From Coriobacteriia bacterium (lineage in GTDB: Bacteria > Actinomycetota > Coriobacteriia > Anaerosomatales > JAAXUF01): a DNA stretch of 64,000 bases. The stretch covers positions 124,001-188,000 of the forward strand of contig JAAXUF010000002.1 in the NCBI GenBank assembly GCA_013336165.1. The letters run 5' to 3'. How positions within the stretch are numbered: the first letter of the stretch is position 1; every line of letters starts with the position of its first letter. A program made the translations under genes and the position numbers. Shown here piece after piece: positions 7,999 through 40,804 of this stretch. The notes beneath the pieces were generated by a model. It ran no database searches and was not told where the DNA came from. It saw only the letters and a program-made list of their open reading frames with translations.

Positions 7999-9264
7999 TC
8001 AGCCCGCGCGCAACTCCCTCATCGCCTCGAGCGCCGCGTCCAAATCGGCATCCGTCGTCGACCAGCCCAGGCCGAAGCGCAGTGCGCCGGTTGCCATCGT
8101 GCCGAGCGTGCGATGCGCCCACGGCGCGCAGTGCAGGCCCGAGCGCACGGCGATCCCGAACTCGCGGTCGAGCGCGCCGGCGAGCAGACCTAGGTCGTGC
8201 CCCTCGGCAACGATGCTCACCACGGGCACGCGGGCCACGTCGACGGCGGGGCCGAGAACACGCACGCCGGGGATCTCAGCGAAGCCTTCGATGAGGCGGC
8301 GGGTGAGACGCGCTTCCTCGGCGCGGATCGCGTCGCCGTGCTCGGCGAGGTACGCAATCGCAGCGCCAAGACCCGCGATGCCGGGCATGTTGCGGGTACC
8401 GGCTTCGTAGCGGTCGGGACGGGTACGCGGCTGGATGGGTTCCTCGGAGGCGCCGCTGCCGGTGCCGCCGGAGATGAGTTCGGCGAGGTTGAAATCGGGC
8501 GCGAGATAGAGCACTCCCACGCCTTGCGGGCCGAGCAGCCCCTTGTGGCCCGAGGCCACCCAGGCGTCGACGCCCAGTGCCTCGAGGTCGACCGGCAGGT
8601 GACCAACCGACTGCGCGCCGTCGACGATCATGCGCGCGCCGGCGGCATGCGCTATGTCGGTGAGGTCGGCGATCGGCTGGATGGTGCCGGAGACGTTGGA
8701 GACGTGCAGACAGACGACGGCGTCGGTGTGAGCCGCGCTGACGGCGGCTTCGATGTCGTCGGGATCGATGAGCCCCGTCGAATCCGCGTCGATGACGACG
8801 ACCTCGACGCCGCTGCCGGCAAGGGCGTGGAGCGGCCGGCTAACCGCGTTGTGCTCCATCGAGGAGACCACGACGCGCATGCCCGGCTGAAGGAAACCGC
8901 GCAGCACGAGGTTCAGGCCTTCCGTGCAGCCGGTGGTGAGGATGATGTTGCGCGACTCGTGCACGCCGAGCATCTTCGCGAGCGCGGCCCGTGTCGAGAG
9001 CACGGCGCGAGCGGCGTTCATCGCCATCGTGTACGCGCCGCGCCCGGGGTTGCCGCCGAGTTCGTCGAGCGAGCGCACCATTGCCTCGGCGACGCCGGGA
9101 GGCTTGGGCCACGAGGTCGCCGCGTGGTCGAGATAGTGCGCGGGGACGCCGCGAGGCTCCTCCTCCGGAACTTCTTCAACACTTGCCACTGCTGCCCCCC
9201 TCGCACTCGAACTCTCGTCCCGCAAGCTTATACACCCCCGCGCCAAGAATACAGACCTGTTCAT
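7999..9264 (-). CDS. Cysteine desulfurase family protein
   Basis: This 421-residue PLP enzyme belongs to the aminotransferase class V cysteine desulfurase group. The PLP lysine lies in ASGHKGLLGPQG, the phosphate-binding GCTEGLN and the active-site cysteine loop RSGLHCAPWAH are also present. The short HCAPWAH loop resembles the subgroup near selenium- or molybdenum-hydroxylase genes rather than classic IscS. It mobilises sulfur as a persulfide. The gene is divergent from the NifX-like/Mop operon, 65 bases apart, which suggests it supplies sulfur for the sulfido ligand of the molybdenum site; that link is inferred. The start at 9264 has a modest TAAGGC; an internal GTG nearer the fold is possible. 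Confidence 0.82.
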   Translation of the reverse strand: MNRSVFLARGCISLRDESSSARGAAVASVEEVPEEEPRGVPAHYLDHAATSWPKPPGVAEAMVRSLDELGGNPGRGAYTMAMNAARAVLSTRAALAKMLGVHESRNIILTTGCTEGLNLVLRGFLQPGMRVVVSSMEHNAVSRPLHALAGSGVEVVVIDADSTGLIDPDDIEAAVSAAHTDAVVCLHVSNVSGTIQPIADLTDIAHAAGARMIVDGAQSVGHLPVDLEALGVDAWVASGHKGLLGPQGVGVLYLAPDFNLAELISGGTGSGASEEPIQPRTRPDRYEAGTRNMPGIAGLGAAIAYLAEHGDAIRAEEARLTRRLIEGFAEIPGVRVLGPAVDVARVPVVSIVAEGHDLGLLAGALDREFGIAVRSGLHCAPWAHRTLGTMATGALRFGLGWSTTDADLDAALEAMRELRAG

Positions 9265-9329: not shown

Positions 9330-9734
9330 ATGAAAGTATGTTTCCCGGTTATGGCCGATGAAGGTACTGCGAGTCAGATCTACGGTCATTTCGCATCGGC
9401 TCCACTCTTCGTCATCGTCGACACCGATACCCTGCAAAGCGGCTCAATCGCCAACTGCGATCCGGAAGCTCCTCTCGTTGGCTGCGACCCGTTTCGCGCT
9501 CTCCGGCACCAAGCTCTTGACGGGATTGTGGTTGGAGGGATCGGCGACGAGTCGGTACGGGTCATGAACATCTGCGGATTCAGAGTCTTTCGGGCCAGCT
9601 CCTCATCGGTTGCCGAGAACCTCACGTTGTTCGAGGCTAACGGCCTGCCGGAGGTGGAGATGGCACAAAGCCAATTGGAAGGTCGGTGCGACGCCGGATC
9701 GGGTGCGCAAACCTGCAGTCACGGCGTTCACTAA
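9330..9734 (+). CDS. NifX/NifB-like dinitrogenase iron-molybdenum cofactor-binding protein
   Basis: The 134-residue protein has the small RNase-H-like fold of the Nif11-independent NifX/NifY/NafY family (PF02579). Diagnostic features are the opening MKVCFPV, the SQIYGHFASAPLFVIVD stretch and the ALDGIVVGGIG strand. Such proteins bind iron-molybdenum clusters or their precursors. A cysteine- and histidine-containing tail (RCDAGSGAQTCSHGVH) may bind metal. GGAGGTGACTC precedes the ATG. No nitrogenase genes are present, so here it probably acts as a molybdenum or iron-sulfur carrier for the aldehyde oxidoreductase encoded 68 bases downstream. Confidence 0.8.
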   Translation: MKVCFPVMADEGTASQIYGHFASAPLFVIVDTDTLQSGSIANCDPEAPLVGCDPFRALRHQALDGIVVGGIGDESVRVMNICGFRVFRASSSSVAENLTLFEANGLPEVEMAQSQLEGRCDAGSGAQTCSHGVH

Positions 9735-9802
9735 GCATTACGCCAGGCAATTGTGCAAGGGGCATATCGCCCGCACCAGAATCCAGAAAGGGGAAGGCAC
9801 GC

Positions 9803-12598
9803 ATGAACAAGAAAGTTCTCGTCGTCAACGGCATCCCGCGAACGTTGATCGTCGACCCGGAAGCTCGCCTGTCAGATGTGTTGCGCAAGCAGCTGCATCT
9901 GACCGGCGTGAAGGTGGGCTGCGGCATGGCCCAATGCGGGTGCTGCAATGTGATCCTGGGCGACAAACTCATCCGCTCGTGTTCCATGAAGATGAAGAAG
10001 GTGGAAAACGGGACCGAGATTACCACAATCGAAGGTATCGGCACGCCACTGAACCTTCACCCGCTCCAGAAGGCATTCATTTCCCATGGAGCTTTGCAGT
10101 GCGGCTTCTGCACTCCTGGCTTCATCGTCTCGGCCAAGGCCCTGCTCGATCATAATCCGAGCCCTACGCGCGAGGACGTTCGCGACTGGTTCCAGAGGAA
10201 CCGCAACGCCTGCCGATGCACGGGGTACGGAATGATCGTCGACGCGGTCATGGACGCCGCAAAAGTGATGCGCGGCGAGATGCCGGAAAACGCGCTGGAC
10301 TTCGAGCTTCCCGCTGACGGCGTAATCTACGGCTCGCGCGCGCCTCGCCCCTCGGCAATTGCCAAGGCCTGCGGCTTGTGGGACTTCGGCGCCGACATGG
10401 GTCTCCAGCTCCCCGACGACACTCTGCAGTGCGCACTAGTCCAGCCTGAGGTCTCGCACGCTCTCATCAAAGGCATCGACACGACCGAGGCCGAAAAGAT
10501 GCCGGGCGTGTTCAAAGTCGTCACGCATAAGGACGTCAAGGGCAAGAACCGCATCACGGGTCTGATCACCTTCCCCGCCAACAAAGGCGATGGATGGGAC
10601 CGCCCCATCTTGAACGACGAGAAAATCTTCCAGTACGGCGATGTCGTCGCCATCGTCTGCGCCGACACCATCGAGAACGCGAAGGCAGCAGCGGCGGCGG
10701 TCAAGGTCGACCTAGAAGTGCTGCCGGCCTACATGAATGCGCCGGCCGCCATGGCTGACGACGCCATCGAGATTCATCCCGGCACGCCCAACATCTACTA
10801 CGAGTGCACCCTGAACAAGGGCGAAGACACCAAGCCGATCATGGCGAAGGCGGCACACGTCGTCGAAGGCGAATACTACCTGCAACGTCAGCCCCACATG
10901 CCGCTCGAGCCTGATGTTGGTTTCGCCTACATCGACGGCGAGGGCCGCTTGGTCATCCATTCGAAGTCGATCGGGCTGTATCTGCACCTCTATATGATCG
11001 CCCCAGGCCTCGGGGTGGACCCGAGCGAGATCGTTCTCGTCCAGAATCCGACGGGCGGCACGTTCGGCTACAAGTTCAGCCCGACTATGGAGGCACTTGT
11101 CGGCGCCGCGACTCTGGCAACCGGCCGCCCGTGCTACCTCGGCTATGACTGGTACCAGCAGCAGACGTACACCGGCAAGCGCTCGCCAATGTGGCTCAGG
11201 ATCAAGATGGGCGCCGATGAGGACGGCAAGCTCCTCGCCATGGAGACCGACTGGAGCGTCGACCACGGCCCCTATTCGGAGTTCGGTGACCTGCTGACGA
11301 CGCGTGTCGCACAGTTTGCAGGTGCGGGATACGACATCAAGAGCATCCGCGGCTTGGGACGCACCGTCTGCACGAACCACTCGTGGGGCTCGGCGTTTCG
11401 CGCTTATGGCTCTCCGCAGGCGTTTCTCGCTTCCGAGTCAATCATGGACGAGCTTGCCAAAGAAATGGATATCGACCCGTTCGAACTGCGCTACAAGAAC
11501 ATCTATCGACCAGGGGCGACCAACCCCAGCGGACAGACACCCGAGGTCTTCTGCCTTGAAGAGATGTTCGACATCATGCGACCCAAGTACCAGGCAGCCG
11601 TGGCAGCAGCCAAGGCGGGTTCCACGGACACCAAAAAGCGGGGCGTCGGTGTTTCGGTCGGCGTGTACGGATGCGGTCTCGACGGTCCGGATTCGTCGTC
11701 AGCTGCGGCGGAGCTCAATCCCGACGGCAGCGTGACCGTCTTCAACACGTGGCAGGACCACGGCCAAGGCGCGGACGCCGGCACGCTCGCATTCGCCCAC
11801 AACACCCTGCGCCCTCTTGGGCTCAAGCCGGAGCAGATCCATCTCAGCATGAACGACACGAGCGACGATCCGAACTCCGGCCCCTCCGGCGGGAGCCGCT
11901 CGAATACGGTCACCGGCAACGCCATTCATGCGGCATGCAACCTACTGCTCGACGCCATGCGCAAAGCGGATGGCACCTACTGGAGCTACGACGAGATGAT
12001 CGCGGCCGGAATTCCGGTCAAGTACGAGGGCACCTGGACCACACCGTGTACGCCCATGGACGAGAACATGCAGGGCAATCCCTTCTGCAACTACATGTAC
12101 GCCCTGTTCATGTCCGAAGTCGAAGTTGACGTCGAGACCGGCAAGACGAATCTGCTCAAGATGACGTATGTCGGAGACAACGGAACCATCAGCAACCGGC
12201 TTGTCGTCGACGGTCAGGTGTACGGTGGCATGGCTCAGGGCATCGGCCTGGCTCTCAGCGAGGACTTCGAGGACCTGAAGAAACAGACGACGCTTATCGC
12301 TTCGGGCTTCCCGTACATCAAGGATGTCCCGGACACTCTGGAGGCCATCTACACCGAGTACCCGCGTCCCGATGGAGCCTTCGGCCAGTCCGGAGTCGGC
12401 GAGGGTCCGCTGACCTCTCCGCACGTCTCTATCATCAACGCCATAGACAACGCCTGCGGCGTGCGCATCAGATCGCTGCCGGCCTACCCGGAGAAGGTGC
12501 TGGCTGCGCTGAAGTCGCCCAAGAAAGCATTCGACGTCAGTGATGCTCTGGAAGGCGGGTACATGTCGCAAGGTGGATTCGAAACACTGAAGAAGTAG
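9803..12598 (+). CDS. mop: Mop-type molybdenum aldehyde oxidoreductase
   Basis: This 931-residue single-chain molybdenum hydroxylase oxidises aldehydes to carboxylic acids with water. The N-terminus holds two 2Fe-2S domains: the first cluster uses Cys40, Cys45, Cys48 and Cys60, the second Cys100, Cys103, Cys137 and Cys139. These are the same positions as in Desulfovibrio gigas Mop. There is no FAD domain; a short linker leads directly into the molybdenum domains. The catalytic glutamate is Glu867 in VGEGPL. Conserved GGTFGYKF and SAFRAYGSPQ contact the cofactor. I chose the ATG at 9803, which follows AAAGGGGAAGG. The following genes are its known companions. Electrons likely leave through the dicluster protein. 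Confidence 0.93.
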   Translation: MNKKVLVVNGIPRTLIVDPEARLSDVLRKQLHLTGVKVGCGMAQCGCCNVILGDKLIRSCSMKMKKVENGTEITTIEGIGTPLNLHPLQKAFISHGALQCGFCTPGFIVSAKALLDHNPSPTREDVRDWFQRNRNACRCTGYGMIVDAVMDAAKVMRGEMPENALDFELPADGVIYGSRAPRPSAIAKACGLWDFGADMGLQLPDDTLQCALVQPEVSHALIKGIDTTEAEKMPGVFKVVTHKDVKGKNRITGLITFPANKGDGWDRPILNDEKIFQYGDVVAIVCADTIENAKAAAAAVKVDLEVLPAYMNAPAAMADDAIEIHPGTPNIYYECTLNKGEDTKPIMAKAAHVVEGEYYLQRQPHMPLEPDVGFAYIDGEGRLVIHSKSIGLYLHLYMIAPGLGVDPSEIVLVQNPTGGTFGYKFSPTMEALVGAATLATGRPCYLGYDWYQQQTYTGKRSPMWLRIKMGADEDGKLLAMETDWSVDHGPYSEFGDLLTTRVAQFAGAGYDIKSIRGLGRTVCTNHSWGSAFRAYGSPQAFLASESIMDELAKEMDIDPFELRYKNIYRPGATNPSGQTPEVFCLEEMFDIMRPKYQAAVAAAKAGSTDTKKRGVGVSVGVYGCGLDGPDSSSAAAELNPDGSVTVFNTWQDHGQGADAGTLAFAHNTLRPLGLKPEQIHLSMNDTSDDPNSGPSGGSRSNTVTGNAIHAACNLLLDAMRKADGTYWSYDEMIAAGIPVKYEGTWTTPCTPMDENMQGNPFCNYMYALFMSEVEVDVETGKTNLLKMTYVGDNGTISNRLVVDGQVYGGMAQGIGLALSEDFEDLKKQTTLIASGFPYIKDVPDTLEAIYTEYPRPDGAFGQSGVGEGPLTSPHVSIINAIDNACGVRIRSLPAYPEKVLAALKSPKKAFDVSDALEGGYMSQGGFETLKK

Positions 12599-12615
12599 GA
12601 TTCGAGGCTGTTACA

Positions 12616-12655
12616 AGCCAGACGGACGCAGTGCCACAGTCGCGTCCGTCTGGCT
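12616..12655 (+). terminator. Strong stem-loop between mop and its companion genes
   Basis: AGCCAGACGGACGC (12616-12629) pairs perfectly with GCGTCCGTCTGGCT (12642-12655), a 14-bp stem with a 12-base loop. No long T-run follows (GTCTCC), so it may be a partial terminator or an RNA-processing/stability element that sets mop mRNA above that of the downstream genes. Confidence 0.6.
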
Positions 12656-12688
12656 GTCTCCATACGAAAGAAGCGGGAGGCCTGAGCC

Positions 12689-15127
12689 TTGGAGCAAGAT
12701 GAGCTGCGGGAATGGGAACGCAAGTGCATCCAAGAAGAGGCTCCGGGATGCACTGCGGCCTGCCCGATCCACGTCGACGCCCGGCTGTTTGCGAAGGAGA
12801 TGGCCCGGGGCGACTGGGAGGCCGCGTTTCAGGCGCTTGCCCGATCGATGCCGTTCCCCGGGATCCTAGCGAGGATCTGTGACCACCCCTGCGAGATGAA
12901 GTGCAAGCGGCGCGAGGTCGACGATCCGATCGCGCTCGGCGCGCTTGAGCGCTTCTGCATCGAGCGGACAACCGGAAAGGTCAGGCCCCAGCTTCTCCCG
13001 CGCAGAGAGCAGACGATCGCCGTTCTCGGCGGCGGGCTCGCAGGCCTGACGGTAGCTTGGGACCTCCGCAAGAAGGGTTTTGGCGTGACGATCTTCGAGC
13101 CGAGCGATCGTATCGGCGGATCGTTGTGGGATCTTGCCGAGCACCTCCTGCCGCCCGGGATCATCCGCGAAGAGCTTGCGGTACTGGACGCGCTCAAGAC
13201 CGAAATCCGGCTTGACGAGACTCTGAACGCATCGGCGTTCGAGACAATCTGTCGAGAGTACGAAGCTGTCTTCGTCGATCGGGAAGCCACCGCGGAGTGT
13301 GACCTGCCGCTGGGGCGGGACCGCGAGAGGGAAATCGCGGTCGACGCCGCATCCGGGGGGACCAGCCAGGAAAGGGTGTACGCAGGGGGCGGGACCCGGA
13401 GAAGCGGGACCTACTCTCCGATTAACGAGGCGTACCAGGGTCGCAAGGGCGCCCTGTCAATCGAGCGGTTCATCCAGAAGGCGCAGATGAGCGCCGGAAG
13501 AGAGAGCGAGGGGCCCTTCGACACGCGGCTCTTCACGAGCTTGGACGGAATCGAGAAGGCTCCGCGCATGCGACCGGCGAATGTCGGCGCTGGGTTCGAT
13601 GAAACCGAGGCACGCGCCGAAGCGAGCCGCTGCATCCAGTGCGAATGCATGGAGTGCACGAAGGTCTGCCTCTACCTGGAGCGCTACGACGGCTACCCAA
13701 AGAAGTACGCTCGACAGATCTTCGGCAACGAGCGAGTCGTTCTCGGCGCGGCCCACACGAAGAACCAGTTCGTGAACTCGTGCAGCGACTGCGGCCTATG
13801 CGAGACCGTGTGTCCGAACAGCTTCGACATGGGCGACCTGTGCCTGCAGGCGCGCCGGACAATGCGCAAACAGGAAATCATGCCGGCGTCGTTCCACGAA
13901 TTCGCCTTGCAAGATATGGCCTACAGCAACGGTGAACGCTTCGCACTCAGCCGTAACGAGCCGGGCCGGACTGCGAGCGCCTGGCTCTACTTCCCCAGTT
14001 GTCAGCTCTGCGCAACTTCCCCAGGCGAGGTGCTGGCTTCCTACCGATACCTGAGGGAGCGACTCACCGGCGGGGTCGGAATCATGCTCGGTTGTTGCGG
14101 AGCACCCGCCTTCTGGGCCGGTCGCGACGACTTGTTCGAGGAGGCCATGGGAACGCTGCGACGCACGTGGGAGTCGATGGGAAGACCTAACGTCATCACC
14201 GCGTGCTCCAACTGTCGCGGCCTCATCGCACGGCACCTCCCTGACGTGGAGTCGATCTCGCTATGGAAAGTCCTAGAGGACAACGGACTGCCCCTCCAGA
14301 CCTGTGCGGCGTCGGGAACGACCGTGTCCATTGCCGACCCCTGTACCACCCGTCATGACAGAGAGACGCAGGATGGCATCAGGCGAATCGCCCAGTCACT
14401 CGGGATAGCTGTCGATGAGCTCCTCTTGAGCCGTGAGAGGCCCGAATGCTGTGGCTATGGCGGGCTCATGTACAACGCCAACCCAAAGCTTGCCGATGAC
14501 GTGATCACCCATCGCGCCGTGCCACCCAGGCGCGATGATAGCGTCTCGCCCACGACACCGTTTAGGCCGCCCGGCGGGTGGTATCGGTCGCAGAAGCTGC
14601 AAGACAGCGACACCGCCTACTACCACACCGAGGTGAGCGCGCACGACTACCTCGCCTACTGCGCCATGTGCCGCGACAATCTGGCCGCAGCCGGCAAGAG
14701 GGTCAGCCATCTGATCGAGCTTCTCTTCCCGGCCGCCGAGGATACGGACCCGGCCGCCCGCGGCTGGATCTCGTGGACCGAGCGCCGCAGCAATCGCGCT
14801 AAGGTGAAGCAGGGAGTGCTCAGAGAGCTTGGCGAGAAGGGTGAAGACGTGGCAACGACGCGGGACGGCCTGGCGCTGGAGATGCGCCCCGAGGTACGGC
14901 GCAAGATCGATGAACGGCGGATCCTTGAGGACGACATCCGCTCAGTGATCGAGCATGCGGAGAGCACTGGGCAGCGACTGCACAACGTGCACAGCGGGCA
15001 GTACCGAGCCTACCGCCAGCTGCAAAACGTAACGTTCTGGGTTGACTACACGCCTAGCGGAGACGATCGGTTCGATGTCCACAATGCCTATTCACATCGC
15101 ATGGTGATCGTGGGGGTCAAGCGATGA
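12689..15127 (+). CDS. Pyridine nucleotide-disulfide oxidoreductase/dicluster-binding protein (DVU_1558-like)
   Basis: The 812-residue protein joins several electron-transfer modules. Residues about 10-90 carry cysteines (CTAACP, CDHPCEMKC) as in the Fe-S domain of glutamate synthase small subunits. A Rossmann motif VLGGGLAGLTVA starts an FAD domain near residue 112, but this domain is short and lacks an obvious second NAD site. Two 4Fe-4S motifs follow (CIQCECMECTKVC and CSDCGLCETVC). Two CCG-type motifs (GCCGAP and ECCGYGG) resemble heterodisulfide reductase HdrD/B. The family accompanies Mop-type oxidoreductases, so it probably takes electrons from Mop. The TTG start at 12689 is preceded by GGGAGG. 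Confidence 0.85.
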   Translation: MEQDELREWERKCIQEEAPGCTAACPIHVDARLFAKEMARGDWEAAFQALARSMPFPGILARICDHPCEMKCKRREVDDPIALGALERFCIERTTGKVRPQLLPRREQTIAVLGGGLAGLTVAWDLRKKGFGVTIFEPSDRIGGSLWDLAEHLLPPGIIREELAVLDALKTEIRLDETLNASAFETICREYEAVFVDREATAECDLPLGRDREREIAVDAASGGTSQERVYAGGGTRRSGTYSPINEAYQGRKGALSIERFIQKAQMSAGRESEGPFDTRLFTSLDGIEKAPRMRPANVGAGFDETEARAEASRCIQCECMECTKVCLYLERYDGYPKKYARQIFGNERVVLGAAHTKNQFVNSCSDCGLCETVCPNSFDMGDLCLQARRTMRKQEIMPASFHEFALQDMAYSNGERFALSRNEPGRTASAWLYFPSCQLCATSPGEVLASYRYLRERLTGGVGIMLGCCGAPAFWAGRDDLFEEAMGTLRRTWESMGRPNVITACSNCRGLIARHLPDVESISLWKVLEDNGLPLQTCAASGTTVSIADPCTTRHDRETQDGIRRIAQSLGIAVDELLLSRERPECCGYGGLMYNANPKLADDVITHRAVPPRRDDSVSPTTPFRPPGGWYRSQKLQDSDTAYYHTEVSAHDYLAYCAMCRDNLAAAGKRVSHLIELLFPAAEDTDPAARGWISWTERRSNRAKVKQGVLRELGEKGEDVATTRDGLALEMRPEVRRKIDERRILEDDIRSVIEHAESTGQRLHNVHSGQYRAYRQLQNVTFWVDYTPSGDDRFDVHNAYSHRMVIVGVKR

Positions 15128-15327
15128 ACCTGACTGATATCGCCCAGGATTGGAGTTGCACTTCCTGCGGAGGAGAACTTGAGATCGTGAAGGTGCAGTT
15201 CGCCTACATGAAAGGCCATTTCGAAGTCGATCTTCCTGCCTGCAAAGACTGCGGGCTTGTCTTGGTCCCAGAGGAGTTGGCGACCGGCAAAATGGCCGAA
15301 GCGGAGCGGATCCTTGAAGACAAGTAG
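15124..15327 (+). CDS. Small redox protein, DVU_1557 family
   Basis: This 67-residue protein is a compact zinc-ribbon or rubredoxin-like domain with two CxxC pairs, CTSCGG near the N-terminus and CKDCGL in the second half. The family is found only next to Mop-type oxidoreductases and the dicluster protein (DVU_1557 in Desulfovibrio vulgaris). The ATG overlaps the stop of the dicluster gene (ATGA) and the end overlaps the start of the methyltransferase gene, so the three are coupled. A metal-binding role is seen from the cysteines; a role as a chaperone or carrier is inferred. Confidence 0.8.
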   Translation: MNLTDIAQDWSCTSCGGELEIVKVQFAYMKGHFEVDLPACKDCGLVLVPEELATGKMAEAERILEDK

Positions 15328-16030
15328 CGGCGATACGTACGTGTCCTGCGTGAGCCGATACGAATCGGGGCCGATACGCGACATCACAGGAGCTGCCATC
15401 CGTCCGGGCGGTCTGGCACTGACCGAGCGCGCGATCGACTTCTGCTGCTTATCGACAGGTGCACGCATTCTCGACGTCGGCTGCGGAGCCGGTGCCAGCG
15501 TCGAGTACCTGACCGACCGCGGATTCGTCGCCAGCGGCGTCGACATCTCGCGAACTCTCCTCGCCGAAGGCCTGGATCGCAATCCTGCCCTTCAGCTAAC
15601 CGAAGCGTGCGCCGAGGCATTGCCCTTCGCCGAGGAGACCCAAGATTGCATCCTCTGCGAGTGCGTGCTGTCACTCCTGAAGGAGCCTCTGCAGGCGCTG
15701 GCCGAGTTTGCGCGGGTGTTGCGCCCAGGCGGCCACCTCATTCTGAGCGACATGTATGTCCGGGGGGCAGGCATGCCCAGCAGCCCTGACTGCGGTCTCG
15801 GCGGACCGGTAACCCGTGGGGAGATCGGGGCATGGCTCTCCGAGAGCGGCTTTGCGACGCTTCTCTGGGAGGATCACACCTCTCTTGTCCGCGAGATGGC
15901 GGCGCGCTTCGTCCTAGCGGGTGGTTCCGCCGAGGGATTCTCTTGCGCAACGGAGGTGGGCGGCGCCGTGGTACTGCCGGGCTATTACCTTCTGGTTGGG
16001 GCAAAGAACCGAACAAGGAGCGTGATCTGA
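15314..16030 (+). CDS. Class I methyltransferase, DVU_1556 family
   Basis: The 238-residue protein has a SAM-binding domain with motif I LDVGCGAGASVEYL, an acidic motif II (SGVDIS) and post-motif segments LRPGGHLILSDMY. It matches the DVU_1556 methyltransferases that belong to the Mop gene neighbourhood. The substrate is unknown; the setting suggests modification of a cofactor or a small molecule used with the oxidoreductase. I picked the TTG at 15314, which has GGAG eight bases upstream and overlaps the previous gene by 14 bases; a GTG about 30 bases later is the alternative. The stop shares bases with the ATG of the next gene (TGATG). Confidence 0.78.
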   Translation: MKTSSGDTYVSCVSRYESGPIRDITGAAIRPGGLALTERAIDFCCLSTGARILDVGCGAGASVEYLTDRGFVASGVDISRTLLAEGLDRNPALQLTEACAEALPFAEETQDCILCECVLSLLKEPLQALAEFARVLRPGGHLILSDMYVRGAGMPSSPDCGLGGPVTRGEIGAWLSESGFATLLWEDHTSLVREMAARFVLAGGSAEGFSCATEVGGAVVLPGYYLLVGAKNRTRSVI

Positions 16031-16479
16031 TGGACGACTTCGATGACGTCAATATGCGAATGCTGGAGCTGTCCTTCAAAGGCTATCTCTGCAGCCAGGT
16101 TCTGATCATTCTTGGCTTGGAGGCGCAAGGAAAGACCAACCCCGACCTGGTTCGGGCCATGCGAGGACTGACCCATGGCGGCTGCTCGGAGGAAGGAACC
16201 TGCGGCGCGCTGACCGGAGCAGCCTGCCTGCTCAGCTTGTACGCCGGCAAGGGCACCGACGACGAAGACCAGGGAGAGGGCCTCCCTTTGATGCTCGGCG
16301 ACCTCGGCGAGTGGTTTGCCGACAGGTACGGCACCCGCTACGGCGGAGTCAGCTGCGACACAATCCAGGGAGACCGAGCAGAGGTTCCCCAGCGCTGCAG
16401 AACAATCGTTGCGGAGATCTACGCCAAGGTTGCCGAGCTTCTGGTATCTCGCGGCTATGACATTTCGGTCGGTAGATAG
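16030..16479 (+). CDS. C-GCAxxG-C-C family protein (DVU_1555 type)
   Basis: The 149-residue helical protein belongs to the C_GCAxxG_C_C family, whose members are redox-active or metal-binding proteins with an invariant GCA-x2-G. Visible are CSQVLIILGLE near the start, GGCSEEGTCGALTGAACLL (the family core) and CDTIQGD and PQRCRTIV toward the end. The family sits in the Mop cassette (DVU_1555). The cysteines could hold an Fe-S cluster or make a disulfide relay. The ATG at 16030 overlaps the previous stop by one base. Confidence 0.82.
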   Translation: MDDFDDVNMRMLELSFKGYLCSQVLIILGLEAQGKTNPDLVRAMRGLTHGGCSEEGTCGALTGAACLLSLYAGKGTDDEDQGEGLPLMLGDLGEWFADRYGTRYGGVSCDTIQGDRAEVPQRCRTIVAEIYAKVAELLVSRGYDISVGR

Positions 16480-16520
16480 ATAGCACCCTTGTCGGACACC
16501 GCTCGATCCGGAGGTACCGA

Positions 16521-17858
16521 ATGGCTGAAGACACCAGCAGCAGTACGGCCACAGAGAGCCTCTGCCCCCGCTGCTTGGCACGAATCCCCGCCGAGCGACA
16601 GCGCGAAGGCGACGAAGTCCTCCTCGTGAAGAGGTGCCCCGAGCACGGTGAGTTCCGGACCACAATCTGGAGGGGTGAGCCCTCACTGTCCGGCTGGTCG
16701 CGCCCCAAGAAGCCGGTCAGCGTCGGCGCCTATCAGGGTGCAGAAACGCGGGGCTGCCCCTTCGACTGCGGTATCTGCGCCAACCACCGGCAGCAGTCCT
16801 GCACTGTCCTGCTCGAGGTGACCGGCCGCTGCAATCTGTCCTGCCCGTTCTGTTTCGCCGACGCCGGTTCCCGGGCTGCGGATGACCCGTCGCTGGAAGT
16901 CATCGCAGACCGGTTCCGGATAGCGTTCGATCAAAGCGGCCCACACAACATCGTCCAGCTCTCCGGCGGCGAGCCCACCGTCCGCGATGACCTGCCCGCC
17001 ATCATCGCCCTCGGCCGTGATGTGGGATTCCCCCATATTCAGCTGAATACCAATGGCGTGCGCCTGGCCGCCGATCCCGCCTACGCAGAGAAGCTGAAAC
17101 GCGCCGGGCTCTTCTCTGTCTTCCTGCAGTTCGATGGAACCGATGACCGCATTCACCGGTCAATCCGCGGACGTTCCTTGCTGGCCGAGAAGCTGCAGGC
17201 CATCGCACACTGTACGACTGCCGGCCTCGGAGTAGTCCTGGTCCCGACACTGGTCAGCGGGGTCAACACCGATAACGTCGGCGACATTCTCAGGCTGGCG
17301 CTGGATCTCGCACCCGGAGTGCGGGGAGTGCATTTTCAGCCTGCCAGCTACTTCGGGCGCCATCCCGGGCCTCCGGAAAACGCGGAGCGCTTCACCCTGC
17401 CCGATCTCATGCGGGCCATCGAGACGCAGACCGGTGGCCTCATGAAGGCGGAGCACTTCCGCCCCCCCGGGTGCGAGCATCCGCTCTGCTCGTTCCACGG
17501 CAACTTCCTGCGCTTACCGGACGGCCAGCTCCGGCCGTTGACACAACATGCGCCCGACTGTGAGCCGGATGAAGGCACGGGTCGCGCAGTGGCCTTTGTT
17601 ACGCAACAATGGTCCGCGCCGAGTCCTTCCTCATGTTGCTGCGCGACAAACAGCCTCGATGCCTTCCTGGAGGACCACCGCGCCAACACCTTCGCCGTAT
17701 CGGCTATGGCTTTTCAGGATGCCTGGAATCTGGATCTGGAGCGGGTCCAGGAGTGCTGCATCCACGTTCTGGCTCCTGGTGGCACGATGATCCCGTTCTG
17801 CCTCTACAACCTGACTTCGGACGAGGGCAGGCGGCTCTATCGGACAAGCCGATGCTGA
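16521..17858 (+). CDS. Radical SAM protein of the Mop cassette (TrsS-like)
   Basis: This 445-residue radical SAM enzyme binds a 4Fe-4S cluster through CNLSCPFCF (CxxxCxxC) near residue 104 and shows the GGEPT motif for SAM binding. An N-terminal cysteine pair (CPRC, residues 15-18) and CPEHGE resemble the zinc region of MJ0619-type radical SAM proteins. The C-terminal part has further clusters of cysteines (CEHPLCSF, SSCCCATN, ECCIHV). Related proteins near Mop genes can be selenoproteins (TrsS); here every position is a plain cysteine and no in-frame TGA interrupts the gene. Its reaction is unknown. The stop overlaps the start of the CoA ligase gene by seven bases. Confidence 0.82.
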   Translation: MAEDTSSSTATESLCPRCLARIPAERQREGDEVLLVKRCPEHGEFRTTIWRGEPSLSGWSRPKKPVSVGAYQGAETRGCPFDCGICANHRQQSCTVLLEVTGRCNLSCPFCFADAGSRAADDPSLEVIADRFRIAFDQSGPHNIVQLSGGEPTVRDDLPAIIALGRDVGFPHIQLNTNGVRLAADPAYAEKLKRAGLFSVFLQFDGTDDRIHRSIRGRSLLAEKLQAIAHCTTAGLGVVLVPTLVSGVNTDNVGDILRLALDLAPGVRGVHFQPASYFGRHPGPPENAERFTLPDLMRAIETQTGGLMKAEHFRPPGCEHPLCSFHGNFLRLPDGQLRPLTQHAPDCEPDEGTGRAVAFVTQQWSAPSPSSCCCATNSLDAFLEDHRANTFAVSAMAFQDAWNLDLERVQECCIHVLAPGGTMIPFCLYNLTSDEGRRLYRTSRC

Positions 17859-19189
17859 CTCCCCTCGAGCCCTGGATCGCGGCCAAGATCGGCCTGCCAC
17901 CCACCACGCCGCTGGCGACTGCGCTTCTGCACGACTACCAACTGAGTCGGTTGCAGGCGACGATTGACTACGTGTGCGATCGCAGCCCCTTCTATCGTCA
18001 GCACCTAGCAGGGGTTCGAGGCAGCGACCTCCACACGCTGGATGACATCGCCATGCTCCCCTTCACCACTCCAGAAGATATCCTGGAGGACGATCTTCGC
18101 TTCCTGTGTGTGTCTCAGGGCGAAATCGAACGGATCGTGACCCTGCGCACCTCCGGGACGACGAACGCTGCCAAGCGCCTGCACTTCACTGCCCAGGATC
18201 TGCAGCTGACGGTCGACTTCTTCCGGCATGGTATGTCCCCTCTGGTCAACCCCCACGAACGCGTACTGATCCTGATGCCGGGCGATGCGCCCGGAAGCGT
18301 CGGCGACCTGCTGGCGCAGGGGCTGGCGAGAATGGGTGCCGAGGGGATCGTCCACGGCATCGTCCAGGACGAACAGGCCGCCATCTCCGAGATAGTCTCA
18401 CGCCGGATCGACTGTCTGGTCGGCCTCCCCGTGCAGGTCCTCGGCCTCGCTCGGCATGCGGCAGCGGCGAGTGTCCCGGCAGGCAGAATCAAGAGCGTCC
18501 TCTTGAGCGCCGACTATGTGCCTGCCGCCATCGTCCGGGAGATCGAGCGAACCTGGAATGTCCCGGTCTTTAACCACTACGGCATGACCGAGATGGGCTT
18601 GGGCGGAGCGGTCGACTGCAGCCAAAGATGCGGCTGCCACCTTCGGGAAGCGGACCTCTACGTGGAAATCGTCGATCCCGGGACCAGCAGACCTGTACCC
18701 GACGGGGAGCCTGGCGAAGTGGTCTTCACGACGCTCACCCGAACCGGCATGCCGCTTGTCCGGTATCGCACCGGCGATCTCTCCCGGTTCATCCCGGAAC
18801 CCTGCCCTTGCGGGACGGTACTCAGGCGTCTGGCGTGGGTCAGGGGACGCTCATCCGGAAGGATCCGCCTGAATGGGAACGATCTCCTCAGCATGGCCGA
18901 CTTGGATGATGCCCTCTTCCCACTGCGCGGCCTGCTCAGTTTCCAAGCCGTGTTGACAACCGAGGACAACAAGGACGTCTTGCAGGTGAGTCTCTTCACC
19001 CGCACCGATGACACGGAAGGCCTCCGCCGTTCGGCCGAGCAGGCACTGTGCGCTGTACCGGCCGTGCAGAGAGCGATCGGTGGAAGCGGACTCAAGATCG
19101 GGCCGGTCATCATGTCTGACGAGATCTGGCAAAGCAGCGGCAGCATCAAGCGCACGATCCACGATCAGAGAGGGAACGCACCATGCTGA
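17852..19189 (+). CDS. AMP-dependent CoA ligase (phenylacetate-CoA ligase-like, DVU_1553 family)
   Basis: This 445-residue adenylating enzyme belongs to the PaaK-like branch of the ANL superfamily. The ATP-binding loop reads TSGTTNAAKRLHFT, the AMP-binding motif HYGMTEMGLGG and the hinge region YRTGDLSRF. A cysteine-rich insertion (CSQRCGC and CPCG) may bind zinc, as in PaaK relatives. It activates a carboxylic acid as acyl-AMP/CoA. Its partner, the Mop oxidoreductase, makes acids from aldehydes, so a link of oxidation to CoA thioester formation is possible, but a role in cofactor assembly is equally possible. The ATG at 17852 overlaps the previous gene. Confidence 0.82.
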   Translation: MLTPLEPWIAAKIGLPPTTPLATALLHDYQLSRLQATIDYVCDRSPFYRQHLAGVRGSDLHTLDDIAMLPFTTPEDILEDDLRFLCVSQGEIERIVTLRTSGTTNAAKRLHFTAQDLQLTVDFFRHGMSPLVNPHERVLILMPGDAPGSVGDLLAQGLARMGAEGIVHGIVQDEQAAISEIVSRRIDCLVGLPVQVLGLARHAAAASVPAGRIKSVLLSADYVPAAIVREIERTWNVPVFNHYGMTEMGLGGAVDCSQRCGCHLREADLYVEIVDPGTSRPVPDGEPGEVVFTTLTRTGMPLVRYRTGDLSRFIPEPCPCGTVLRRLAWVRGRSSGRIRLNGNDLLSMADLDDALFPLRGLLSFQAVLTTEDNKDVLQVSLFTRTDDTEGLRRSAEQALCAVPAVQRAIGGSGLKIGPVIMSDEIWQSSGSIKRTIHDQRGNAPC

Positions 19190-20238
19190 CGATTCAGATG
19201 CTGAAGGCCATCAGCGATTTGCTCGGCGACGGAGAGGATCTCGTCTTTGCCACGGTGCTCAGCAAGTCAGGGTCGGCGCCCAGCTCATCGGCGGCCCAGA
19301 TGGTGCTTCGCTCCGACGGACGTTCAGTTGGCACCGTGGGCGGCGGGAAGCTGGAAGCCGGGGCACAGCAGGCGGCCGCGCGGGTATTTGAGGCCCGCGC
19401 GGCAGAGGAGCTGTTCTTCGACCTTACCAGCGCGAATGCCAACGGCGCTGAGATGATCTGCGGCGGCCGGGTCAGACTGCTGTTGGACTACATCGAGGCA
19501 TCATCGGCTAACGTTGAGACGTTTCGCTCACTGCGGGACGCCGTGCAGGTGGGCAAGCGGTGCTATCTGGTCGCCTCTCTTGGCAAAGCCGACGGTGAGA
19601 AGAAGCAGACGGTACACTGCGCGGCTTGTGAGGACGGCTGCGTCGCCGGCGAGTTCGCGTTTCCCCGGTTGTGGCTGGACACACTGATGGAGCAGGCTCG
19701 CTACTCGGTCTATCCGGTCGCCCAGACGATCGCGGACGAGCAATTCGTGGTCGAGCGCTGTTTTATCCCGAGCACGGTCTTCATCGTCGGGGCGGGTCAC
19801 GTCGGACAGCACGTAGCACTGGTCGCCGAGATCGCCGGCTTCCGGACGGTTGTGCTCGACGATCGGAGCGAATACGCCAACCGGGAAAGGTTCCCCGATG
19901 CCGATGAGATCAAGCTGCTCCGCTCGTTCGAGCACAGCTTCACCGGAATCGAACTCGAAACCGACAGCTACGTGGTGATCGTCACTCGAGGTCACCTGCA
20001 CGACAAGATGGTGCTGTCGCAGGCCCTGCGGACCGGAGCAGGCTACATCGGCATGATCGGAAGTAGGACAAAGCGGGACAAGATCTACTCGGCGTTGCAG
20101 GATGAGGGCTTCTCGGCCGAGGAGCTCGCGAGGGTTCACAGCCCGATCGGTCTCGACATCGCAGCGGTGACTCCCGGCGAGATCGCCGTCAGTATCGTGG
20201 CCGAGCTGGTCCAAGCTCGCGCGAGGAACGCCCGGTGA
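19183..20238 (+). CDS. XdhC/CoxI family molybdenum-cofactor maturation protein
   Basis: The 351-residue protein has the XdhC/CoxF architecture. The N-terminal XdhC_CoxI domain (residues about 5-80) shows GTVGGGKLEAG, and the C-terminal Rossmann domain shows VGAGHVGQHVA, YIGMIGSRTK and HSPIGLDIAAVTPGEIAVS. XdhC proteins bind the molybdenum cofactor, promote addition of the terminal sulfido ligand and insert it into molybdenum hydroxylases, so this one should serve the Mop enzyme upstream. A cysteine pair CAACEDGC lies in the linker (residues 147-153). Start ATG 19183 overlaps the CoA ligase stop by seven bases. Confidence 0.9.
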   Translation: MLTIQMLKAISDLLGDGEDLVFATVLSKSGSAPSSSAAQMVLRSDGRSVGTVGGGKLEAGAQQAAARVFEARAAEELFFDLTSANANGAEMICGGRVRLLLDYIEASSANVETFRSLRDAVQVGKRCYLVASLGKADGEKKQTVHCAACEDGCVAGEFAFPRLWLDTLMEQARYSVYPVAQTIADEQFVVERCFIPSTVFIVGAGHVGQHVALVAEIAGFRTVVLDDRSEYANRERFPDADEIKLLRSFEHSFTGIELETDSYVVIVTRGHLHDKMVLSQALRTGAGYIGMIGSRTKRDKIYSALQDEGFSAEELARVHSPIGLDIAAVTPGEIAVSIVAELVQARARNAR

Positions 20239-21368
20239 CGCCGATGGGATCCATCGCGGCCATCATCCTTGCAGCCGGGTACTCGTCCCGGATGGGGGCG
20301 TTCAAACCGCTGCTGCCGTTTGGTGAGACGACTGTCTTGGAGCAGGCCGTTGCCGTGTTCCGGAAGGCCGGCGTTCAGGATGTGCGCGTTGTCGTGGGCT
20401 ACCGTTCGGAGGATCTATTGCCGGTGCTGGCGGGCATGAAGGTCCGCTCGGTCATGAACCCGTGCTATCAAGAGGGTATGTTCTCCTCGGTGCTCGCAGG
20501 TGTCGAGAGCATGGGCGCGGAATGCGAAGCATTCTTCCTGATGCCGGTGGATTTCCCGCTGGTGCGGCCGGAGACGATTGAGCTTCTGGCTCACGCACGC
20601 CGAGATACGTCGATCGGCATATTCTATCCGGCCTTCCTTGGTGAGCGGGGGCACCCTCCGCTGATATCGAACTCGTACCGAGAGCGGCTTCTCTCTTGGC
20701 GTGGCATGGGGGGCCTGAAAGCCTTCTTGGAACAGTATGAAGGCGACTCGATGACCGTTGAGAGCGGAGACGAGGGTATCCTGCTGGACATGGATACTCT
20801 GGAGGACTACGAACGGCTGCGCGCCTCCCTGCGCGTCGACTCAACTCCCTCCCGCCAAGTGTGCGAACAACTGCTGTGCGGGAGATTCGCCGCTGACAGC
20901 CCCGTGGTCGAGCACTGCAGGGCGGTGGCACGACTAGCCCTTGTGCTGGCGGAACGGCTGAACGAATGTGGCTGCCGGCTGGACACGGCCGTGGTCGAGG
21001 CAGGCGCGCTGCTCCACGACCTCGCTAGAGACGAGCCTGATCACGCTGCGGCTGGAGCCGCCGCTCTGACGCGAATGGGACATCGCGCGGTCGCCGATGT
21101 CGTCGCCACTCACATGGATATCCAGCTCGACCCCGGAGATGCCATCAACGCCGCCGAACTTGTATTCCTCGCCGACAAGCTCACTCGAGGAACCCGGTAC
21201 GTCCCCTTGGAAGTTCGCTTCCGAGACCAGCTTGAGCGTCACGCTCACGAAGACGATGTGCTGGCGAAGATCACATGTCGGCTTGAAAGCGCCCGCATGA
21301 TTGCGAAGGGCGTCGAGTCGCGGCTGGGCCGCAGGATTGAAGACGTGTGGACAGAGGCGACGCCATGA
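20235..21368 (+). CDS. MocA-like NTP transferase fused to an HD domain (DVU_1551 family)
   Basis: The 377-residue protein has two domains. The first (residues about 1-200) is a nucleotidyltransferase like MocA/MobA, with LAAGYSSRMGAFKPLLP and the metal-binding PVDFPLV. The second (about 205-360) is an HD phosphohydrolase domain with LLHDLARDEPDH. The transferase probably attaches CMP to molybdopterin, giving the cytosine dinucleotide cofactor used by Mop-type enzymes; the HD domain may hydrolyse a nucleotide product. The GTG start at 20235 overlaps the XdhC stop (GTGA); an ATG at 20244 is also possible. Confidence 0.82.
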   Translation: MTPMGSIAAIILAAGYSSRMGAFKPLLPFGETTVLEQAVAVFRKAGVQDVRVVVGYRSEDLLPVLAGMKVRSVMNPCYQEGMFSSVLAGVESMGAECEAFFLMPVDFPLVRPETIELLAHARRDTSIGIFYPAFLGERGHPPLISNSYRERLLSWRGMGGLKAFLEQYEGDSMTVESGDEGILLDMDTLEDYERLRASLRVDSTPSRQVCEQLLCGRFAADSPVVEHCRAVARLALVLAERLNECGCRLDTAVVEAGALLHDLARDEPDHAAAGAAALTRMGHRAVADVVATHMDIQLDPGDAINAAELVFLADKLTRGTRYVPLEVRFRDQLERHAHEDDVLAKITCRLESARMIAKGVESRLGRRIEDVWTEATP

Positions 21369-22009
21369 GTCACTCGGAGGAGAAGCCCTGCCTCACAATC
21401 TACCTCATGCGCCACGGCGATTCGCGCCCGGACTCAGTTCGCCGCTTCATTGGGCAGACCGATCACGCACTCAACGACAGAGGACGCGCGCAGGCAGAGG
21501 CGTGGGGCGTGAAGCTATCCGGTACCGCGCTTCATGACATCCTGTGCAGCGATCTGAAGCGCTCGATCGAGACGGCGCAAATCATCGGCGAGCAGACCGG
21601 CACGCCGCTCACCGTCCTGCCCGAACTGCGAGAGATAGGGCTCGGTAGTTGGGACGGGATGCCCATCGATGAAGTGCGACGACGCTTCCCGCAAGAGTAC
21701 GCCCTTCGGGGAGCGGACATCGAGCACTACCGCCCCCCCTCGGGGGAAAGCTTCGCCGATCTCTCCGGGCGCATGTTGCCGGCCTTCGAAAGCGCGGTCC
21801 GGCGGTCGCAAGGAGATCTCCTGATTGTCGGCCACGCCGGGGTGAACCGGGTCATCCTCTGCCGTGTTCTGGGGATGCCGCCAGCAGACCTCTTCCGCTT
21901 GGAACAGGAGTACGGATGCCTGAATGTCCTGAAGTTCGCCGAAGGCGGCTGGGTCGTGTGCAAGATGAATCTGACACTCGGGGCATCGCAGATCAGACCC
22001 CGAAGTTAG
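21365..22009 (+). CDS. Histidine phosphatase family protein
   Basis: This 214-residue protein is a member of the phosphoglycerate mutase/CobC-like histidine phosphatase superfamily. The catalytic histidine lies in the motif LMRHGDS, the second arginine in SDLKRSIETA, the acid in LREIGLG and the second histidine in IVGHAGVNR. The ATG overlaps the stop of the NTP transferase gene (ATGA), which makes it the last gene of the Mop operon. A dephosphorylation step in cofactor synthesis is a plausible role, but the substrate is unknown. Its stop overlaps the stop of the convergent moeA gene. Confidence 0.82.
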   Translation: MSHSEEKPCLTIYLMRHGDSRPDSVRRFIGQTDHALNDRGRAQAEAWGVKLSGTALHDILCSDLKRSIETAQIIGEQTGTPLTVLPELREIGLGSWDGMPIDEVRRRFPQEYALRGADIEHYRPPSGESFADLSGRMLPAFESAVRRSQGDLLIVGHAGVNRVILCRVLGMPPADLFRLEQEYGCLNVLKFAEGGWVVCKMNLTLGASQIRPRS

Positions 22010-23271
22010 CCAAGAACACCAACGCTTTCGTCGACATCTATCCGCAGGCAGTCCATGATCGTACCCTCCGGATACTCCCGTCCGTCTCCCGGCAAGACGA
22101 GAAGACAGTTCGCCTTGTGCATCGCCGTCATCAATGCCGAGGACTGGCTGCCCGTCAGCACGACGCTGAAGACGACGCAGTCGTCGCGCCCAGTGATCGG
22201 CTCGAGCCGAGCTCGCAGGTACTGTCGGCGTCCCGGCTTCTTCGAGATGCCCTCCGCGAGCACCGCACGTACGACGGGCCTGTCGATCGCCGAGATTCCT
22301 TGCATGAGACGCAGCATCGGGCGCGCGAACATCTCGAAGCCCATATAAGCTGATGTCGGGTTGCCCGGGAGTCCGAAGTACGGCACCCCGTTGATGACGC
22401 CATACGTCTGCGCTCCGCCCGGGCGCATGTTCACTTTGTGGAATGTCACCGAGCCGATCTCGGCGAGTACGCGCGGCGCGAAGTCGAAATCGCCCACGGA
22501 GACGCCACCTGAGCTGACCACGACATCGGCATCCGCCGCAGCCGCAAGGAACGCCGAGCGCACAGTCGCCTCATCATCGCGCACGATCCCGTGCACCACA
22601 GGAATCCCGCCAGCGGCGAGTACCAGCGCGGCGAGCGAAAGCGAGTTGGAGTCGCGGATCTTGCCCGGTCCGGGTCTCTCGTCGGTGTCGACGAGCTCGT
22701 CGCCCGTGGGCAGGATTGCCACGCGCGGGCGGCGATGGACCGACACGACCACGTTGCCGGTGGAGGCGAGCAGTCCGACTGCGGCCGGGCTGATGACCTC
22801 TCCCGCGGACAGGATCACCTGGCCCTCTCGGACTTCCTCGCCCCGAAAACGAACGTGGTCGCCGCGTGTGGCCGGGCGCTTGATCGCCACCGTCCCACCG
22901 GCCCCACCACCGGCCTCGAGCCCCTCGGTATCCTCGATCTTGACGATCGCATCGGCGCCTTCCGGCACCGGTGCGCCGGTCATGATACGCGACGCCGTAC
23001 CCGGCTGGAGAACATGCGTCGGAACGCTGCCCGCAGCGATGTGGTCGAGCACGCGAAGCACCACAGGCGTGTCTTCGCTCGCACCGCCCGTGTCCTCGGA
23101 ACGAACGGCATAGCCATCCATGGCGGTGTTGTCGAACGGAGCGACATCGATGTCGCTCAAGGCATCCTCGGCAAGCACCCGGCCGAGCGCCTCGAGCAGA
23201 CTCACCCGCTCAGTCGGCAAAGTCGAAACGCCGGAGAGCACCATGGCTCGGGCTTCCTCAACACTGATCAT
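22006..23271 (-). CDS. moeA: Molybdopterin molybdotransferase MoeA
   Basis: The 421-residue enzyme inserts molybdate into adenylylated molybdopterin. Hallmarks are PFDNTAMDGYA and RIMTGAPVPEGADAIV in the first half, and ILPTGDELV, SSGGVSVGDFD and LPGNPTSAYMGFEMF in the MoeA/MogA-like domain. Length and order fit the family. The ATG at 23271 follows GGGAGA; the frame is open further upstream but that part lies over mogA. It is the last gene of the mod-moa operon and lies convergent to the Mop operon, with overlapping stops. Confidence 0.93.
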   Translation of the reverse strand: MISVEEARAMVLSGVSTLPTERVSLLEALGRVLAEDALSDIDVAPFDNTAMDGYAVRSEDTGGASEDTPVVLRVLDHIAAGSVPTHVLQPGTASRIMTGAPVPEGADAIVKIEDTEGLEAGGGAGGTVAIKRPATRGDHVRFRGEEVREGQVILSAGEVISPAAVGLLASTGNVVVSVHRRPRVAILPTGDELVDTDERPGPGKIRDSNSLSLAALVLAAGGIPVVHGIVRDDEATVRSAFLAAAADADVVVSSGGVSVGDFDFAPRVLAEIGSVTFHKVNMRPGGAQTYGVINGVPYFGLPGNPTSAYMGFEMFARPMLRLMQGISAIDRPVVRAVLAEGISKKPGRRQYLRARLEPITGRDDCVVFSVVLTGSQSSALMTAMHKANCLLVLPGDGREYPEGTIMDCLRIDVDESVGVLG

Positions 23272-23330
23272 CGCTGTTCTCCCTTTGGATTCGTTGCTCT
23301 TGCAAGACCTGTGGCGCACCGGCAAGACCG

Positions 23331-24472: not shown

Positions 24473-24477
24473 TGGGG

Positions 24478-24990: not shown

Positions 24991-24993
24991 GGG

Positions 24994-31388: not shown

Positions 31389-31389
31389 G

Positions 31390-32216: not shown

Positions 32217-32231
32217 TTTCAACCTCCCTTA

Positions 32232-33089: not shown

Positions 33090-33091
33090 GG

Positions 33092-35023: not shown

Positions 35024-35042
35024 TCCTCCTCCTCCTTTGTGC

Positions 35043-35054
35043 TCTTGCTCAAGA
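35043..35054. promoter_or_regulatory. Short palindrome upstream of echA
   Basis: TCTTG-CT-CAAGA is a perfect 5-bp inverted repeat 20 bases before the echA start, just upstream of its ribosome binding site. It could be a regulator site in the 5' leader. Nothing else in the 254-base gap to the next gene (35024-35277) is recognisable. Confidence 0.25.
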
Positions 35055-40599: not shown

Positions 40600-40607
40600 G
40601 ACTTCGC

Positions 40608-40735: not shown

Positions 40736-40804
40736 GATCTTCAATTGCTACGTCTTTGTCGCGACCTCCTCACTGAATAGACGGTGCGTCTTCCGGCTGA
40801 AAAA

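Follow-up and report, generated by a model that had tools for sequence, protein, structure and literature searches.

An operon of eleven plus-strand genes around the gene of Mop, a molybdopterin-dependent aldehyde oxidoreductase, occupies positions 9330-22009 of the window, the whole 64,000-nucleotide stretch of a Coriobacteriia bacterium that was analysed here (contig JAAXUF010000002.1, positions 124,001 to 188,000), and all eleven reading frames are intact. It opens with a NifX-like protein of the dinitrogenase iron-molybdenum cofactor (FeMo-co) family (9330..9734; PF02579, 6e-9), a lineage-specific accessory and not a core member, followed by Mop itself, with two [2Fe-2S] and molybdenum cofactor (Moco) domains (9803..12598; NF045668, 1635 bits against a cut-off of 1100). 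Downstream lie a GltD-like/dicluster/CCG oxidoreductase, a probable redox partner with Fer4_20, Fer4_17 and CCG domains (12689..15127; NF045663, 992 bits, cut-off 530), a small CxxC protein of the DVU_1557 family (DUF7479, PF24292; 15124..15327; NF045645, 96.7 bits, cut-off 60), a class I S-adenosylmethionine (SAM) methyltransferase of the DVU_1556 family with a putative GTG start (15341..16030; NF045667, 224 bits, cut-off 155), an all-helical C-GCAxxG-C-C protein of the DVU_1555 family (16030..16479; NF045669, 159 bits, cut-off 103) and TrsS, a radical SAM enzyme of the tetraether synthase (Tes) type in its cysteine form (16521..17858; NF045646, 652 bits, cut-off 490). The series is completed by a full-length PaaK/F390-synthetase-like adenylate-forming ligase of the DVU_1553 family (17852..19189; NF045666, 480 bits, cut-off 300), an XdhC-family Moco maturation factor (19183..20238; NF045664, 420 bits, cut-off 350), a MocA-like nucleoside triphosphate (NTP) transferase with an HD domain, of the DVU_1551 family (20235..21368; NF045665, 434 bits, cut-off 315; TIGR03310, 140 bits; PF01966), and a CobC-like histidine phosphatase (21365..22009; PF00300, 192 bits).

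An earlier note had described this region as a complete Mop maturation cassette of eleven overlapping genes, most of them lacking known biochemistry. The inventory holds in full: nine of the genes exceed curated NCBIfam cut-offs specific to the Mop cassette, and the NifX-like protein and the histidine phosphatase match general families only. The overlaps, of 1 to 7 bases, are confined to six of the ten junctions, the other four having gaps of 68 (nifX-mop), 90 (mop-dicluster), 13 (DVU_1557-methyltransferase) and 41 bases (C-GCAxxG-C-C-TrsS). The cassette families are already catalogued by NCBIfam after the D. vulgaris loci (DVU_1551-1557, TrsS), with their function uncharacterised. A literature search for DVU1552-DVU1557 gave no match and no paper on the function of the cassette families was found, in agreement with the earlier note; TrsS is mentioned once, in one line of a selenoprotein table.

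Conservation beside other mop genes was assessed by a Mop-alignment scan of named genomes, which gave 80 loci; the counts that follow use the 50 loci, the window excluded, whose downstream sequence reaches 9.3 kb or more. The dicluster oxidoreductase and the DVU_1557 protein are encoded downstream of mop in all 50, the C-GCAxxG-C-C protein in 48, the methyltransferase in 47, TrsS and the ligase in 46 each, XdhC in 38, and the NTP transferase and the phosphatase in 33 each. Desulfobacterota keep the order mop, dicluster, DVU_1557, methyltransferase, C-GCAxxG-C-C, TrsS, ligase, XdhC, NTP transferase, phosphatase, and Desulfosporosinus and Anaerolineae show it with minor rearrangements, so the association of these genes in the window is not due to chance. 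Fusions tie the core genes together further: the dicluster and DVU_1557 genes are fused in ten loci, and TrsS is fused to the ligase in one (L052), which supports consecutive steps for the latter two. The NifX-like gene accompanies mop in only five of the 50 loci, all of a Desulfuromonadales-like type, and it was dropped as a cassette part together with cysteine desulfurase and MoeA, as none of the three has conserved adjacency to Mop. In three Desulfuromonadales-type loci the NifX-like gene and mop are separated by a gene for 340 residues whose resemblance to MoeA was judged by eye alone (L010 8800-9822, L012 8795-9817, L027 8845-9867); the window has none.

Mop of the window is 65% identical to the crystallised Mop of D. 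gigas and 64% identical to that of D. desulfuricans, and its iron-sulfur cysteines (C40, C45, C48, C60, C100, C103, C137, C139) and catalytic glutamate (E867) are invariant with 1sij and 1dgj. The structure of natively purified D. gigas Mop at 1.28 A shows ordinary molybdopterin cytosine dinucleotide (MCD) (PMC10223205). The Mop encoded in the D. gigas genome (G465) matches the crystallised chain with 100% identity across 461 residues, and directly downstream of its gene lie intact genes for the dicluster protein, the DVU_1557 protein, the methyltransferase, the C-GCAxxG-C-C protein, TrsS, the ligase, XdhC and the phosphatase. Because a Mop with ordinary MCD has the same cassette next to its gene, routine modification of Moco by the cassette is disfavoured and, provided that the cassette was expressed in the cells concerned, hard to reconcile with this structure. 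Ordinary MCD in native Mop from a cassette-bearing genome is also one half of what the earlier note had itself named as evidence that would count against its proposal.

The link between Mop and TrsS extends from single loci to whole genomes. Among 288 genomes of the family of G249 (Desulfovibrio group), 187 have Mop, 181 have TrsS and 170 have both (Fisher p 5.5e-44), and among 395 genomes of the phylum of G247 the respective numbers are 35, 44 and 34 (p 5.6e-39), with Mop counted there as strict matches plus one fragment and TrsS including one recovered from fragments. These counts are approximate, as the large scans scored few candidates per genome and genome completeness is not given, and the p values are overstated by kinship among the sampled genomes, which are not independent. 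Several Mop-only genomes proved on re-check to carry TrsS that is partial or split by small insertions, and in four more (L166-L169) the cassette is cut by the contig end; conversely, whole or fragmentary Mop was recovered in five TrsS-only genomes of the G249 family. Where a Mop locus has no TrsS, several such loci lying at contig ends, TrsS was found elsewhere in the genome in 8 of 8 cases checked. Twelve additional copies of Mop were inspected in nine genomes, each of them giving one TrsS match, and all stand alone: in flanks of about 7 to 10 kb to either side there are no dicluster, DVU_1557, methyltransferase, C-GCAxxG-C-C, TrsS or ligase genes, one weak partial dicluster match at 29% aside, and one of the twelve adjoins an NTP transferase. 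Pyrroloquinoline quinone (PQQ), F420 and mycofactocin show such a profile, with one biosynthetic set and scattered client oxidoreductases exclusive to the genomes having it (Haft; PMC3023750). Here, too, the paralogues are scattered and the clients are exclusive to genomes bearing the set, two genomes (G422 and G520, considered below) being possible exceptions.

The module around TrsS also occurs without Mop. Ten genomes of the G247 phylum have TrsS and no Mop above the cut-off, and eight of them hold a Mop-less cassette (L150-L155, L157, L158) with the methyltransferase and TrsS in 8/8, and the ligase, the CCG/dicluster protein and a stand-alone 90-residue version of the C-terminal dicluster domain in 7/8 each; Mop, XdhC, the NTP transferase and the phosphatase are found in none of the eight. 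The remaining two (L156, L159) belong to the Mop-linked clade, L156 being cut by its contig. In a quick tree with Tes as the outside group, Mop-linked TrsS forms one set (50 rows, SH-aLRT 99) and Mop-less TrsS another (9 rows, 91), the single odd row, L131, starting near a contig end. Two of the Mop-less cassettes (L150, L155) adjoin 2-hydroxyacyl-CoA dehydratase-like proteins (HGD-D) and a BcrAD-type activase, and four adjoin parts of a tripartite TRAP-type transporter and a RACo-type corrinoid reactivase, with a corrinoid protein in three of these four and a fumarate-reductase-like (TfrA-like) flavoprotein in two; transporter, reactivase, B12 protein and flavoprotein occur together in L157 and L158. 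Mop is also absent from locus L127, which holds a pair of TrsS-like genes, a ligase, DUF5714 and HGD-D. The existence of this sister core suggests that the core is not specific to the cofactor of Mop.

By sequence, the closest solved relative of TrsS is 7tol. The AlphaFold2 model of TrsS (predicted local distance difference test score, pLDDT, 87.7) matches 7tom with Z 46.8 and a root-mean-square deviation of 2.2 over 401 residues at 38% identity, and the next structural match, MoaA, has Z 22.4; against the Tes model NF045702 the protein scores 348 bits, below the cut-off of 450. Compared by the ligands reported for the tetraether synthase GDGT-MAS (PMC9433317), TrsS keeps the rubredoxin-like CxxC..CxxH, the N-cluster CX3CX2C with its His, the radical SAM CX3CX2C, the C-cluster cysteines and the labile Met (M396) in 46/46 Mop-linked sequences; the assignment of C323, C412 and C427 to the C-terminal cluster is our own, from the alignment. 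Five residues past the N-cluster His lies a further position, C94, which we define here as a TrsS feature outside the NCBIfam description: it is Cys in 46/46 Mop-linked copies, Ile in MJ0619 and, in L096 from Synergistaceae, a TGA codon that presumably encodes selenocysteine. In GDGT-MAS a carbon of the substrate becomes bonded to a cluster sulfur, and for this reason formation of a C-C or C-S bond at an alkyl carbon would be the natural guess for TrsS. Methylation of a pterin, hinted at by the Pfam name HMPTM, was dropped as a candidate: MJ0619 is a tetraether synthase whose former role as a pterin methylase could not be corroborated (PMC9433317), so the label is no argument for pterin chemistry.

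Two side observations concern TrsS-like proteins elsewhere. In four genomes of the G249 family (G276, G278, G279, G418; L023, L118, L122-L124) TrsS contains short insertions, in frame and close to residues 111 and 273, that break up its profile matches. The source genome also encodes a second Tes/TrsS-like radical SAM protein (L112, C3:150000-168000), at 382 bits under the TrsS cut-off, next to a molybdoenzyme of the dimethyl sulfoxide (DMSO) reductase family, MobA, two CCG proteins partly matching NF045663, NrfD and a ferredoxin-DUF169 protein; a similar set, with a molybdoenzyme 57% identical, is present in G054 of the same class (L135).

The ligase has PaaK (4r1l) as its relative in the PDB and reaches 128.5 bits with the PaaK model TIGR02155, below the cut-off of 646. 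Its family occurs in two lengths, of about 440 residues and of about 350 residues, the latter without the C-terminal domain that bears the catalytic lysine region, as seen when L016, L031, L033, L062, L080 and L082 are compared with window 17852-19189, where the C-terminal KR region (..SIKRTIHDQR..) is kept. The model of the C-GCAxxG-C-C protein (pLDDT 93.5) found nothing in the PDB by Foldseek at E<=0.001, which does not thereby show a new fold. For the histidine phosphatase, alpha-ribazole phosphatase (CobC, TIGR03162) was considered and rejected at 156.7 bits against a cut-off of 162.9.

Taken together, the operon most likely consists of two joined parts, an ordinary Mop maturation set and a separate module on which Mop depends or which it feeds. 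XdhC and the MocA-like NTP transferase, and perhaps the phosphatase, are assigned to the former since they are present only in the Mop form, and would make and insert normal MCD. The latter would comprise the dicluster/CCG oxidoreductase, the DVU_1557 protein, the methyltransferase, the C-GCAxxG-C-C protein, TrsS and the ligase, its sister form having other client enzymes. The impression in the earlier note that the radical SAM enzyme, ligase, methyltransferase and redox genes go beyond what plain Mop needs is borne out; its view of the whole set as acting on the cofactor of Mop is not, given the ordinary MCD of D. gigas, the sister core and the restriction of Mop-tracking to XdhC, the NTP transferase and perhaps the phosphatase. 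Of the path for a modified cofactor or ligand that it envisaged, the modified Moco is disfavoured by the D. gigas structure, and a ligand or other small molecule outside Moco may still be its product.

It is plausible, if somewhat short of an even chance, that the core builds and uses a dedicated diffusible small molecule, perhaps the electron acceptor of Mop; the molecule, its chemistry and its role as acceptor are what we infer from the genes. TrsS could form a radical bond (C-C, or C-S via an auxiliary cluster) at an unactivated alkyl carbon in the manner of Tes, the ligase could adenylate or thioesterify a carboxylate, the methyltransferase could methylate the small molecule, and the dicluster and DVU_1557 proteins could reduce or oxidise the product. 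Mop, having no flavin, may then pass the electrons of aldehyde oxidation to a diffusible carrier. HdrB-type CCG proteins act as reductases of disulfides or quinones, and a carrier is favoured because of this chemistry, the lack of a flavin in Mop and the cofactor-with-clients profile. The fuller version, in which a new redox (or acyl) carrier made by Tes-type radical chemistry is the physiological acceptor of Mop and serves quite different anaerobic enzymes in the sister system, is put forward tentatively. Several points weigh against a carrier. No candidate molecule is known and none was detectable in this analysis; flavodoxin has been proposed in the literature as the electron partner of Mop by docking, so that the absence of a flavin from Mop can be accounted for without a new carrier; many Desulfovibrio ligases, at about 350 residues, do not have the C-terminal domain, which is odd for a biosynthetic enzyme; and the TRAP transporters, corrinoid and dehydratase-like proteins of the Mop-less loci look more catabolic than redox-carrier like. 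In addition, G422 has two divergent Mops (47% identity) with XdhC and the NTP transferase, and G520 a lone Mop, with no TrsS found in either; these may be incomplete genomes or real exceptions to the Mop-TrsS pairing.

The main rival, somewhat less likely than a carrier, is a catabolic pathway. TrsS, the methyltransferase and the ligase would convert one substrate, Mop would oxidise an aldehyde intermediate to an acid, which the ligase would turn into a coenzyme A (CoA) ester, and the dicluster protein would collect the electrons, with a dehydratase, corrinoid demethylation or a fumarate-reductase-like flavoprotein taking the place of Mop in the Mop-less loci. Such a route is a serious yet doubtful possibility: Mop yields carboxylates, the ligase is PaaK-like and the Mop-less surroundings (TRAP/B12/RACo/TfrA-like in L157 and L158, HGD-D with BcrAD-type activase in L150 and L155) suit it, whereas stand-alone Mops found almost only in cassette genomes are unexpected for a single-substrate route and many homologues of the ligase lack the C-terminal domain. 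That no conserved transporter or CoA-ester enzyme was seen in the Mop form is a weak objection, as only cassette genes were mapped there. A role of the core in Mop maturation proper, by modification of Moco or of the Mop polypeptide, would explain the very tight co-occurrence with TrsS and the presence of XdhC and the NTP transferase in the same operon; the crystallised D. gigas enzyme, the sister core and the membership of TrsS in the Tes family, whose pterin methylase role is uncorroborated (PMC9433317), make it unlikely.

A function closer to that of Tes itself, with TrsS making a membrane-spanning lipid and with Mop and the ligase handling fatty aldehydes or acids, draws on the structural match to GDGT-MAS, the complete metal ligands and the lipid roles suggested for bacterial Tes homologues by Zeng et al. 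(PMC8941075). The sub-threshold Tes score, the extra invariant Cys/Sec at C94, the lack of any lipid gene among the cassette members of the window and the strict tie to Mop, which a lipid leaves unexplained, render it improbable. A last reading takes the cassette in this genome for a foreign insert, either inert or a contaminant. TrsS exceeds its cut-off in 1/246 sampled genomes of the host phylum, Mop is 79-84% identical to that of four Desulfuromonadales-type metagenome-assembled genomes, and TrsS groups with the copies of three of these (four-row set, SH-aLRT 99). Such Desulfuromonadales-type relatives and the rarity in its own phylum suggest that the cassette was probably gained horizontally; as the eleven frames are intact, the contig is 247,878 bases long and contamination of the genome is rated at 0.26%, an inert or contaminating insert is very unlikely.

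The genes around the operon add a wider molybdenum context. MoeA/Glp-like, MOSC-domain and MoaA genes (22006-26088, minus strand) converge on it to form a molybdenum cofactor island, and a TIGR01977-type cysteine desulfurase (7999-9264, minus strand) diverges from it, with relatives near the cassette in a few other loci (L160, L013, L021, L147) and within it, between the C-GCAxxG-C-C and TrsS genes, in L162. Farther away, a radical SAM gene stands beside complex I/hydrogenase-like 49-kDa and antiporter-like subunits (30300-36519), and two proteins of 558 and 1925 residues carry DUF5648 domains at their C-terminal ends (38912-46582, minus strand).

The cassette as such was catalogued before, yet uncharacterised, and the copy described here is a further member in an unusual host; the present analysis contributes the connection with D. 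gigas, the division of the operon into a maturation part and a core that is independent of it, the sister clade that has no Mop, and the recognition of TrsS as a Tes relative with complete metal sites. For four decades D. gigas Mop has served as a model molybdoenzyme, and a radical SAM module accompanies its gene in nearly every case. With the sister form and the Tes-type enzyme known, the "accessory genes" become the starting point of a testable hunt for a molecule, and, if the carrier proposal is right, the physiological electron acceptor of Mop would be a new molecule from Tes-type radical chemistry. There is also a warning for annotation, in that bacterial Tes-like proteins beside Mop are no evidence for membrane-spanning lipids and the pterin label on the TrsS/MJ0619 radical SAM family is out of date.

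The operon can be compared with several known systems. The D. vulgaris DVU_1551-DVU_1559 locus, where mop is DVU_1559, trsS DVU_1554 and xdhC DVU_1552, and the D. gigas mop cassette have the same families in the same order and on one strand (NF045663-NF045669, NF045645, NF045646); the window differs in its extra upstream NifX-like gene, and the D. gigas locus is without the NTP transferase. For Mop itself, no difference relevant to the cofactor was found from the D. gigas aldehyde oxidoreductase (1sij/1vlb), with 65% identity and shared iron-sulfur cysteines and catalytic glutamate. TrsS resembles Tes/GDGT-MAS (MJ0619, 7tol/7tom) in its fold over 401 residues and in the ligands of the rubredoxin-like iron and three [4Fe-4S] clusters, including the labile Met, but is shorter, scores under the Tes cut-off, has Cys/Sec at position 94 where Tes has Ile, and is linked to Mop and not to lipid genes. 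The Mop-less cassettes (L150-L155, L157, L158) share with the window the CCG/dicluster protein, the C-terminal dicluster domain, the methyltransferase, TrsS and the ligase, and have HGD-D/activase or B12/RACo/TRAP genes instead of Mop, XdhC, the NTP transferase and the phosphatase. As in the mycofactocin and PQQ systems (PMC3023750), a genome holds one radical SAM biosynthesis set and scattered, exclusive client paralogues; unlike in those systems, the client in the Mop cassette is a molybdoenzyme.

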